NCBI GenBank assembly: GCA_030637455.1
Contig: DAOWGL010000162.1
Coordinates: forward strand, 1 to 10,035
From: Candidatus Nitrosopumilus sp.
GTDB lineage: Archaea > Thermoproteota > Nitrososphaeria > Nitrososphaerales > Nitrosopumilaceae
Length of the DNA: 10,035 nucleotides
Direction of reading: 5' to 3'
Position 1 is the first letter of the stretch, and each line of letters begins with the position of its first letter. This document shows, in pieces, positions 1,864-8,871 of the stretch. The position numbers and the translations under genes were made by a program. Under the pieces are notes generated by a model. It searched no databases and was not told the DNA's origin. It saw only the letters and a program-made list of their open reading frames with translations.

Positions 1864-2874
1864 GTGAAACAAACCGAAGAAGAATTAGACTTAGATGTTG
1901 GTGCAGATATAGATAATGATTCTGAATTAGGTATGGATTTAGATGACGATGTAGACGAATTTGATCCAAAAAGAGGTGGAATCTTACAATCTACCTCAAA
2001 ACGCGTTAGAATGATCTTTTCTGTCATGGCCAGTCCAAACAGAATTGATATCCTCAGAATCCTAAATTCTAAGGGTCCGTTAACTTACTCTGAATTAAAA
2101 TCATTAGCTGGTTTCAAATCAAAAAAAGAAAGTGGAAAATTTGCATACCACTTGAGAAAATTACTTAGACAATCACTTGTTGCATTAAACAAATCTGAAA
2201 GACGTTACACCATTACAAATCTTGGAAAACTTGTTTTGAGTTTAGCAAGACAAATTGAAGAAAGATCAATTATTGAAAGTGGAAAGATGTATGTTAGAAC
2301 ATCTTCTGAATCAATTGAAGAATTCAACTCTCACAAAATCATTCAATCCCTAGTCCGTGAAGGAAGTCTTCCATTAGAACTAGCACAAAAAATTACTGAA
2401 GAAGTTGAAAATAGAATTTACAAATATCAAACAACCTATCTGACAGGTGCATTAATCCGAGAAATGGTTAATTCTGTACTTCTTGAGCACGGTCATGAAG
2501 AATACAGGAACAAACTAGCACGCCTAGGACTACCTGTCTATGATGTTCAAGAGATGATTTCTAATCTAGATGATGTCGATAATGGTGCTGAGGGATTATT
2601 ATTCAATGCTGGACAAAAGGTATTTGCTGAACGTCTTCTTACAAATGTTTTACCTAAAGATGTAGCAGACTCTCATCTTTCTGGCGACTTGCACATTTCA
2701 AATCCTGGAGTTTGGTCCATGATTCCTGATACAATATTTGTTAACATTAAAGAATTGATTGAAGATGGAGTTGATCTTGGAGGAAAATATCTTGATGTAT
2801 CAAGAATTTCTACATCAAAACAACTAGATAAAATCAACACTTCCTTCCCTGTAGTCCTCGCCGCGCTGGCGTAA
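1864..2874 (+). CDS. Winged-helix/ATP-cone/NrdD-like regulator, N-terminal part, ended by an in-frame TAA
   Basis: From GTG 1864 to TAA 2872-2874 this gives 336 residues. Residues 1-38 are very acidic (LDLDVGADIDNDSE). Residues about 45-135 look like an ArsR-type winged helix (MASPNRIDILRIL, then KFAYHLRKLL, then RRYTITNLGK). Residues about 142-215 match an ATP-cone, the nucleotide-sensing domain of ribonucleotide reductases and NrdR (IEEFNSHKIIQSLVRE, then LIREMVNSVLLEHG). From about 220 the sequence resembles class III RNR NrdD: LGLPVYDV, then VLPKDVADSHLSGDLHIS, close to the NrdD pattern VLPKEIADAHLSGDIHIHD. Homology continues in the same frame past the stop to 4032, so this is the front half of a ~722-residue gene, not a complete protein. 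There is no Cys in this half. Inferred role: a DNA-binding regulator sensing dATP/ATP, probably for the adjacent RNR gene. If the stop is real, the truncated product keeps its winged helix and ATP-cone and might still bind DNA. Confidence 0.85.
   Translation: MKQTEEELDLDVGADIDNDSELGMDLDDDVDEFDPKRGGILQSTSKRVRMIFSVMASPNRIDILRILNSKGPLTYSELKSLAGFKSKKESGKFAYHLRKLLRQSLVALNKSERRYTITNLGKLVLSLARQIEERSIIESGKMYVRTSSESIEEFNSHKIIQSLVREGSLPLELAQKITEEVENRIYKYQTTYLTGALIREMVNSVLLEHGHEEYRNKLARLGLPVYDVQEMISNLDDVDNGAEGLLFNAGQKVFAERLLTNVLPKDVADSHLSGDLHISNPGVWSMIPDTIFVNIKELIEDGVDLGGKYLDVSRISTSKQLDKINTSFPVVLAALA
2856..2874 (+). other. GC-rich patch with small hairpin and the in-frame stop that splits the gene
   Basis: Bases 2856-2871 are 14/16 G or C inside strongly AT-rich coding DNA and use codons uncommon here (CTC GCC GCG CTG GCG). 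CGCC (2859-2862) can pair with GGCG (2868-2871) around GCGCT, and TAA follows directly. The next 82 codons are all sense and the protein resemblance continues. A single change at TAA (for example from TCA or TTA) would restore one open frame. Sequencing error, a recent nonsense mutation and local sequence replacement all remain possible. Confidence 0.8.
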
Positions 2875-4032
2875 GTATCCGCACAAGAAATTGTTCTTGA
2901 TGGTTTAGTTCCATTATTTGCAAAACATTCAAAATCTATTCCAGAACTTGAACAAAAACTAACTGATGCATTTGCAACTTCATCAACAACTTCCAAATAT
3001 AATAAAAATAGTACCAATGTTTCAATTCGTTTACAATTAGGAACTGACACAAAAATAATTACTGCAATTATCAATGCATACAAAAATTATACAAAGATTA
3101 CACCAATTCCAAAAATTGGTTTGATAATTGATGCTGATAAAGGAAAGATTACTGATGTATCACAAGCAGTAGCTGAAATTCTTTCTATTGGTGGAAAAGT
3201 AATGTTTGCAAAAGGTCAAACATCTAGTTATGGAATAACTAATGGATCTACTAAAACATCTGGTCCTCTTTCAATTACATTACAATCTGTTTCAATTAAT
3301 CTTCCGAGATTAGCATTTGAATCAAACAAAGATGAAACTTATTTTAGAGCAAGACTTGCTTTACTAATGAAACCAGCTTTGGCTTCTATGGCATTAAGAA
3401 AGAAAGAGATCTCTGATCTTACTAGAAGAGGACTTAATCCAATTCTAGCAAAGAACACCCAATACATGCAGAGAAGTTCTGTATCTCTTGTTGTGAATTT
3501 AGTAGGACTCAAGGAAGCAGTCTTTAACATACTTGGATTCCAAGACAATAAAGAAGGACGAGATATTCTTAACAAAGTTATAGAAACTGCAGTCGATGTT
3601 GGTGCCAAAAAAGGCAAGGAATTAGGCGACACAGTGGCTATTTCTATGACTGAAACTGAAGGTTCTACCCGTTTTGCAACCCTTGATGGTGAAAAATATG
3701 GCAAAAACTCAAGCCTAAACTCTATGGATACTGATTACTATTCTCAAGGTATAGTGGTTAATGCTTCAGAAGTTTCTAATTTAACTGCAAGAAGTGAGGT
3801 CATCTCTGAGTGTAACAAACTCTCAAAGGTACTCAATGGCGGTCTCCTAGTAACATTACAAATTGACAAATATGCTAAAGTCGAGGATATCAAAAAAGCA
3901 ATAGAGAAAACATCTACACTTACTCCTTCTTTCAAACCAGTAAGACCAACTGCAATTTGTGGTGAGTGTGGATTCAAGGATGAACCATTTGATGACAAAT
4001 GTCCAAAGTGCAAGTCACCTTATGTTGTCTGA
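2875..4032 (+). pseudogene. C-terminal part of the same regulator: degenerate NrdD-like domain plus zinc ribbon, no start of its own
   Basis: This is the same frame as the segment starting at 1864. Codons 2875-3120 are all sense but contain no ATG, GTG or TTG; the first possible start is TTG 3121, then ATG near 3202, both inside the domain. It therefore reads as the detached second half of one gene. Numbered from GTG 1864, about 338-690 resemble the NrdD barrel C-terminal region (LGFQDNKEGRDIL, then AISMTETEGSTRFATLDGEKYG). The tail is a zinc ribbon with Cys 699, 702, 713 and 716, like the metal site of NrdD. The chain ends six residues later, so the glycyl-radical segment is missing. The only other Cys in the whole 722-codon frame is 650, so no finger-loop thiyl Cys is evident: the domain should be non-catalytic. 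It may act as a sensor or dimer platform. It ends 233 bases before the RNR gene. Confidence 0.75.
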
Positions 4033-4057
4033 ATATCGTAAATGAAAAACTAGTTCC

Positions 4058-4082
4058 GATCATTTTTGAAAATTTTTTGATC
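4058..4082 (+). terminator. Probable terminator after the regulator gene
   Basis: GATCA (4058-4062) and TGATC (4078-4082) form a short stem enclosing a T- and A-rich loop that holds runs of five and six Ts, beginning 25 bases after the TGA at 4030-4032. The T-tracts fit archaeal U-tract termination; the stem is weak. Confidence 0.4.
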
Positions 4083-4113
4083 AGTTTCAGATCTCGCGAT
4101 CATCGTTAACTAC

Positions 4114-4124
4114 TAACAATGTTA
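4114..4124. promoter_or_regulatory. Palindrome TAACAATGTTA upstream of the RNR gene, possible operator
   Basis: This is a perfect 5+1+5 dyad. Its core ACAATGT is the exact reverse complement of ACATTGT, the core of a second dyad centred 52 bases downstream (4161-4179). That spacing is about five helical turns, so the two would lie on the same DNA face. A link to the neighbouring winged-helix protein is inference. Confidence 0.3.
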
Positions 4125-4160
4125 AGAAGTATGAAGTTCATAGTAACATCAAGCACCATT

Positions 4161-4179
4161 ACGATACACATTGTACCGT
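4161..4179. promoter_or_regulatory. Imperfect dyad ACGATACACATTGTACCGT, possible operator
   Basis: Seven of nine base pairs of this 19-base dyad match (inner TACA/TGTA, outer ACG/CGT). It lies 44 bases upstream of the presumed TATA box at 4223, a position suited to a regulator. It shares a 7-base core with the palindrome at 4114-4124. Confidence 0.3.
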
Positions 4180-4222
4180 TGTCAATTTTATTGAACTGAA
4201 ATTTATCAAAGTTTTTCAGAAT

Positions 4223-4230
4223 CATTTATA
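4223..4230 (+). promoter_or_regulatory. Probable TATA box of the RNR gene
   Basis: CATTTATA ends 35 bases before ATG 4266. Transcription would then start around 4250-4256 and leave a short leader, unlike the probable leaderless genes in this window. The leader contains a Shine-Dalgarno-like GGGGAG. Confidence 0.5.
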
Positions 4231-4234
4231 CCCC

Positions 4235-4261
4235 ATCTCTCAATACCCTTAGCGGGGAGAT
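4235..4261. promoter_or_regulatory. Dyad over the presumed transcription start and ribosome-binding site of the RNR gene
   Basis: ATCTCTC (4235-4241) can pair with GGGAGAT (4255-4261), seven pairs including one G-T, around a 13-base loop. The right arm includes most of the Shine-Dalgarno-like GGGGAG. As DNA it could be a repressor site between TATA box and start codon; as RNA, if transcription starts upstream of 4235, it could hide the ribosome-binding site. Confidence 0.35.
4254..4259 (+). promoter_or_regulatory. Shine-Dalgarno-like site GGGGAG of the RNR gene
   Basis: GGGGAG ends 6 bases before ATG 4266 and supports that ATG as the start. No comparably clear Shine-Dalgarno site was noticed before the other genes with a TATA-like box at leaderless distance. 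Confidence 0.5.
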
Positions 4262-4265
4262 TATA

Positions 4266-8751: not shown

Positions 8752-8773
8752 GAAATTAAGTTTGCATTTTATT

Positions 8774-8847
8774 GCAGTCATAGTATAGCCTGGTTAGTAT
8801 TCGGGGTTTCCAACCCTGTGACGCGGGTCCGAATCCCGCTGACTGCA
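8774..8847 (+). tRNA. tRNA-Gly (anticodon UCC)
   Basis: The cloverleaf closes fully. The acceptor stem is GCAGTCA with TGACTGC (8774-8780, 8840-8846) and discriminator A at 8847. The D-arm GTAT/GTAT has a loop containing GG. The anticodon stem CGGGG/CCCTG (8802-8806, 8814-8818) carries loop TTTCCAA with U33 and A37, giving anticodon UCC (8809-8811), which reads GGA and other Gly codons. The T-arm is GCGGG/CCCGC with loop TCCGAAT. There is no intron and no encoded CCA. A short T-run after the gene (8848-8852) may end transcription. One oddity: position 55 is C instead of the usual T. Confidence 0.95.
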
Positions 8848-8871
8848 TTTTTCAATACTCATGAGAACCAA

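Follow-up and report, generated by a model that had tools for sequence, protein, structure and literature searches.

The 10,035-nucleotide stretch analysed here (the window; positions 1 to 10,035 of contig DAOWGL010000162.1, forward strand, from Candidatus Nitrosopumilus sp.) raises the question of what is encoded directly upstream of nrdJ, the gene of a class II ribonucleotide reductase (RNR), by a gene that source databases name 'anaerobic ribonucleoside-triphosphate reductase'. The product joins a winged helix and an ATP-cone to a body related to NrdD, the class III reductase. It is probably an RNR-specific transcription regulator, itself probably responsive to ATP or deoxy-ATP (dATP), derived by duplication from a class III reductase, and is called the regulator below. 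The two genes and their parts are as follows.

1864..4032, + strand: gene for the winged helix, ATP-cone and pseudo-NrdD protein (the regulator), interrupted once in this assembly and intact in homologues
2014..2238, + strand: winged-helix domain (DUF7347 / HTH_20), a Pfam profile match
2287..2505, + strand: ATP-cone of the regulator, a Pfam profile match
2587..2820, + strand: N-terminal NRDD-like stretch, 18.5 bits, under the Pfam cut-off of 26.2
2872..2874, + strand: in-frame TAA within an atypical short segment; close relatives are without it
3253..4017, + strand: C-terminal NRDD body, PF13597 at 77.6 bits (cut-off 26.2)
3958..4011, + strand: zinc-ribbon cysteines CxxC...CxxC, after which the gene ends in place of a glycyl-radical loop
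4266..6917, + strand: nrdJ, class II RNR that itself carries an N-terminal ATP-cone, by profile matches

An earlier note on this stretch had read from the letters a winged helix and an ATP-cone, and profile searches bear out both: the winged helix scores 42.2 bits with PF24038 (cut-off 27.6) and 34.4 with PF12840 (cut-off 27), and the cone 37.2 with PF03477 (cut-off 25.8). The NrdD-like body with a zinc-ribbon end, also proposed there, is recovered over the cut-off in its second half only. The next gene is indeed a class II RNR, as had been said, and the ATP-cone of the encoded NrdJ scores 76.1 bits. Within the winged helix, two sets of aligned rows (76 and 14) show an invariant GxFxYHL core, presumably a part of the recognition helix. 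A third ATP-cone protein is encoded in the window's genome (L003:1564-2304, 246 residues), and the portion behind its cone appears nuclease-like by eye.

The span from 1864 to 4032 had been taken as one frame, which does not hold in this assembly, where the TAA divides it into frames 1864-2874 and 2875-4032. The regulator gene has no stop at the other 29 loci of the same genus, and 120 close homologues from the protein database are open at this position, which is weaker evidence because protein databases hold open frames only. Since the approximately 30 bases around the TAA (2853-2884) are locally GC-rich and dissimilar to those of close relatives, the stop is read as a local error or fresh mutation; it is probably a sequence or assembly error, or possibly a very recent mutation, and not a feature of the family.

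The fate of the reductase residues was followed in an alignment of 107 members from the order Nitrososphaerales (the window included), 118 family rows from outside the order and 21 NrdD rows; the 118 rows comprise 110 distinct sequences, and one of them (L091) is actually from Nitrosopumilaceae, the window's own family. The RPFC cysteine is present in 21 of 21 NrdDs, in 0 of 107 members of the order and in 0 of 118 rows outside it. All 21 NrdDs also have the QCC cysteines, the second of which lines up with the GCR cysteine, taken to be the thiyl residue, in an NrdD of solved structure. When this segment was realigned, a cysteine at the matching position, which a conserved glycine precedes, was found in 21/21 NrdDs and 0/107 members of the order, 7 of which have a cysteine nearby, a few residues away at most. 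At the glycyl-radical column, 20 of the 21 NrdDs have glycine (the exception is a truncated frame), compared with none of the 107 and 7 of the 118, including L225, which reads RITGRF, near the glycyl motif. The full motif is present in 19/21 NrdDs, 0/107 and 0/118, and in none of the best 80 named loci recovered from GTDB species genomes by the winged-helix and cone part. All four zinc cysteines are kept in 106 of the 107 and 107 of the 118. The regulator scores 89.8 bits with the NCBIfam NrdD model TIGR02487, against a cut-off of 326.35. By its sequence, then, the body in the order is no class III reductase, and the suggestion of a retired enzyme is upheld for all 107 members.

In a tree of 53 rows, a quick short search made without bootstrap and with some long-branched rows, a single branch (SH-like approximate likelihood-ratio support 100) parts all NrdDs from all winged-helix proteins, and the proteins of the order are nested within the other winged-helix proteins. 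As judged from profile matches and this tree, the regulator and NrdD are of common ancestry.

Adjacency to nrdJ had been put forward as a test, and it is conserved: with one locus counted per genome, and with G046 and G059 (gene split across contigs) excluded, a same-strand nrdJ lies directly downstream of the regulator at 109 of 114 loci of the order (51/52, 56/60 and 2/2). Among the five misses, L099, L102 and L117 end close to the regulator gene, and L091 extends approximately 2 kb downstream without nrdJ. The linked NrdJ proteins range from 97% to about 29% identity with that of the window, which indicates that the partnership has outlived large change in the enzyme. At L100 an ERCC4-type nuclease-like gene (by eye) is found downstream of the regulator instead of nrdJ.

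Of 61 sampled relatives 58 have the regulator, as do 183 of the 201 genomes sampled from the order; among the 129 of these with completeness of 90% or more and contamination of 5% or less, the count is 125. A sample of the phylum gave matches in 111 of 151, a count that includes true NrdDs. Of the best 80 loci mentioned above, 74 carry the names Bathyarchaeota, Bathyarchaeia, Hecatellales or similar, and by these matches the family extends into Bathyarchaeia. No protein exceeded the cut-off of the NrdR model TIGR00244 in the 61 genomes, the window's included, in a search that was positive in 9 of 14 control genomes. One of the 61 has an NrdD over the NCBIfam cut-off. Genome G050 of the order also encodes a true NrdD over this cut-off (L162:1-1407, 457.5 bits). 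For NrdG, model TIGR02491 was over its cut-off in 0 of 61 genomes, with weaker matches in 52; this absence is not firm, since just 3 of 14 control genomes reach the cut-off.

Regulation of nrdJ, which the earlier note had offered as an inference, is supported by a dyad that many related genomes have upstream of nrdJ and of the regulator gene itself. Among the 5-mers that precede nrdJ in 15 families of the order, GTCAA showed the greatest enrichment (22, with 7.8 in shuffles). Once extended to GTCAA-N6-TTGAC and scored at 9 of 10 matching positions, it gave 9 sites in the discovery set, against 0.26 predicted from control intergenic DNA, in a comparison made post hoc. DNA upstream of the regulator, unused in defining the motif, has sites at 6 of 19 loci of the order (L036, L038, L041, L043, L047 and L053) and also at one locus of Bathyarchaeia, L068.

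A set of 40 fresh loci from outside the window's family was then scored with motif and threshold set beforehand. It has 26 dyad sites before nrdJ (at 23 loci) and 13 before the regulator gene (at 12 loci), with 6 sites in 363.7 kb elsewhere, a rate at which approximately 0.2 would be expected in each promoter set. By family label, loci with a site before nrdJ number 9/11 in f10, 4/4 in f13, 4/5 in f14, 3/5 in f9, 3/3 in f4 and 0/12 in f8; those with a site before the regulator gene number 7 in f10, 3 in f4, and 1 each in f14 and f8. Across five whole f4 genomes, 6 of 7 perfect sites stand before the regulator (5) or nrdJ (1), compared with 2 sites for a reversed control. At several f10 loci the dyad lies at approximately -33 from the start of the regulator gene. 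Because this is the expected position of the TATA box, it suggests that the regulator represses its own gene in that family.

On the Bathyarchaeia side, a k-mer search of 34 upstream regions gave no GTCAA signal, and the dyad was found before the regulator gene only at L068 and L221, apparently the same genome. Another locus of Bathyarchaeia has three palindromes of the GTCAA...TTGAC type at 33 bp spacing behind a fibrillarin-like gene (L251:3749-3830), which may be terminator-like.

Within the window's family the candidate operator takes a form one base shorter, GTNAA-N5-TTGA. The elements between the two genes of the window are these.

4130..4142, no strand: palindrome TATGAAGTTCATA; TATGAANTTCATA stands before nrdJ at 15 of 30 same-genus loci
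4161..4179, no strand: genus-level palindrome ACGATACACATTGTACCGT, the arms of which tend to covary among relatives
4181..4196, no strand: GTCAATTTTATTGAAC, a GTNAA-N5-TTGA dyad, candidate nrdJ operator by position and conservation
4225..4230, + strand: TTTATA, likely nrdJ TATA box; TTATA is invariant in the genus alignment

The TTTATA, likely the TATA box on the pattern of archaeal promoters, begins some 28 bases downstream of the candidate operator. The short form is present before nrdJ at 20 of the 30 same-genus loci, the set in which it was defined, and at 15 of 22 test loci of the family, some of them congeneric with the window; elsewhere 232 kb gave 9 matches, for an expectation of 0.21. 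No GTNAA-N5-TTGA site was identified upstream of the window's regulator gene. The first operator candidate, palindrome ACGnTACAnnnTGTAnCGT, was set aside; apart from the window just one relative has it, and it represents, at the level of the genus, the dyad with covarying arms. In 13 rows picked by eye from related sequences, the covariation score of these arms is 0.248, where shuffling gives a mean of 0.157 and 1 shuffle in 500 comes as high; the pairs changed on both sides number 3, with 1.6 for the shuffles, of which 44 in 500 come as high.

Several observations weigh against the reading as an RNR-specific regulator made from a reductase. The GTCAA 5-mer was extended to the full dyad by eye, from regions upstream of nrdJ, and all six families among the fresh loci were already in the discovery set, so that they represent new species and not new lineages. 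Family f8 has a single dyad site in 12 loci, before the regulator gene, and at its locus L100 the regulator is kept with no nrdJ in 4.3 kb downstream. In ten whole genomes other than those of f4, all 10 perfect sites lie elsewhere, with 9 for the reversed control. The long form is absent, at 9 of 10 positions, from all 20 loci of the window's family, and the short form matches 16 times across the genome of the window, as against 36 times for its reversed control, so that it is not unique there and position and conservation alone support it. Second copies of nrdJ unlinked to the regulator have no upstream site of at least 9/10 in any of nine loci (L154-L161 and L164), of which L158 and L161 have almost no upstream DNA; action in trans is therefore not shown, and these copies, from several families of the order, may be differently controlled. 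Outside the order, on the Bathyarchaeia side, an RNR is found in the flank (up to 6 kb) at 15 of the best 80 named loci, a lower bound since many contigs are short. These 15 are all downstream and on the same strand, with NrdD in 11 and NrdJ in 4, so that one type of regulator goes with two RNR classes. The cone of the window's regulator reads VRTSSE and does not match VxKRDG, given as the ATP-cone signature in a passage of PMC3267527. The NrdDs at L070 and L071, which belong to the same phylum and retain their catalytic residues, share this VRTS type of cone start, and nucleotide binding by the predicted cone is plausible on that account. Lastly, local realignment showed a cysteine at the thiyl-like position in 16 of the 99 rows from outside the order that could be aligned; gaps seen earlier at the thiyl cysteines in all family rows were an artefact outside the order. 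The retained cysteine may be a relic or have a new role, and its presence points to a stepwise loss of catalysis. GC[RK]-like motifs at this position, without a glycyl motif, were noted at L057:5134-7455, L188, L212, L229 and other loci outside the order.

A mechanism can be proposed that starts from a duplicated NrdD: by acquiring a winged helix it would have become a scaffold, presumably dimeric, that bears a nucleotide-sensing cone; catalysis would have been lost, apparently step by step, and DNA binding gained. The NrdD-like body would dimerise the protein, placing two winged helices to hold a two-fold site, predicted to be GTCAA-N6-TTGAC in several families and GTNAA-N5-TTGA in the window's family. 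The bound sites would be those of the nrdJ promoter; in some families the regulator's own promoter would have them too. The cone may sense the ATP/dATP state and alter the assembly or spacing of the two helices. Transcription of nrdJ would be coupled through the regulator to the supply of deoxyribonucleoside triphosphates (dNTPs), while the cone of NrdJ itself would set enzyme activity. The sites are upstream of the nrdJ TATA box and therefore compatible with both repression and activation; repression, as in NrdR, is slightly preferred as a guess. A bolder extension, which we regard as doubtful, gives the protein two dNTP readouts, the cone for the overall level and the old NrdD specificity site for which dNTP is present. 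It would then be a dNTP-balance transcription factor for a different RNR class and the general RNR control of the order and of Bathyarchaeia, replacing NrdR.

The best-surviving alternative, still unlikely, assigns the dyad to another, unlinked transcription factor and makes the regulator an allosteric partner of NrdJ, with the winged helix serving protein contacts. Linkage to RNR genes would suit a protein partner also, and f8 keeps the gene with the dyad nearly absent; against this, the 13 sites before the regulator's own gene at 12 of the 40 fresh loci are a usual mark of autoregulation, and the GxFxYHL core of the winged helix is invariant in the two aligned sets. A second alternative, to which we give little credence, accepts an RNR-gene regulator with a cone that has lost nucleotide binding; what the protein senses would be zinc, redox state or a protein partner. 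The departure from VxKRDG and the zinc cysteines kept in 106 of 107 members would fit such a sensor, and it is opposed by a cone over the Pfam cut-off and by the same VRTS-type start in L070 and L071. That the protein is a variant form of the class III reductase, with perhaps a different mode of activity, is highly improbable: the database name, an NRDD match over the Pfam cut-off and the thiyl-like cysteine of some relatives outside the order would favour it, and it is contradicted by the absence of radical and active-site residues across the order, by the NCBIfam score far below its cut-off and, as far as TIGR02491 can tell, by the lack of NrdG.

The preferred interpretation, a regulator of RNR genes derived from NrdD, would provide an abundant archaeal order with a conserved nrdJ-adjacent regulator and a predicted operator, making dNTP control directly testable. 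If true, an enzyme has been turned into a transcription factor acting on another enzyme class that catalyses the same reaction, and database names that imply an anaerobic reductase in aerobic organisms, as the ammonia-oxidising archaea of the order are known to be, would be corrected.

Two further features of the window lie outside these genes. Upstream, positions 1-1519 hold a thiolase-like frame (by eye) adjoining a ChsH2-type protein with zinc ribbon and oligonucleotide-binding fold. Downstream, a tRNA-Gly gene (tcc) at 8773-8848 overlaps the listed start, 8818, of the frame for Rpr2 (ribonuclease P), the true start of which is probably further in.

Searches of the open PubMed Central (PMC) literature found no title or abstract that describes a winged helix joined to a cone and a pseudo-NrdD; known systems share parts of the plan. 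Like NrdD, the regulator has a cone, an NRDD body and a C-terminal zinc ribbon; unlike NrdD, in the order it is without thiyl cysteine and glycyl-radical loop, and a winged helix has been added. With ArsR/SmtB-like and DUF7347 regulators it shares the N-terminal winged helix, which here is fused to a cone and a pseudo-reductase, and its HTH_metalloreg score is 23.5 bits against a cut-off of 55. NrdR is described as rare in archaea in a passage of PMC9110341, and the NrdR box as absent from archaea in one of PMC4009431. The likeness to NrdR lies in an ATP-cone combined with a DNA-binding domain, in linkage to RNR genes, and in candidate sites before RNR genes and the protein's own gene. The differences are that NrdR has a zinc ribbon before its cone, where the regulator has a winged helix and carries its zinc ribbon at the C-terminus of the NrdD body; that NrdR has 150-200 residues and the regulator about 720, with a large dead NrdD body; and that the regulator gave no NrdR-profile match over the cut-off in the 61 genomes and has a candidate dyad different from the NrdR box. 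The idea of an NrdR analogue thus stands for the plan and not for membership: on present sequence comparisons the regulator is not a member of the NrdR family, but it resembles NrdR in how its parts are arranged for the probable control of RNR genes.

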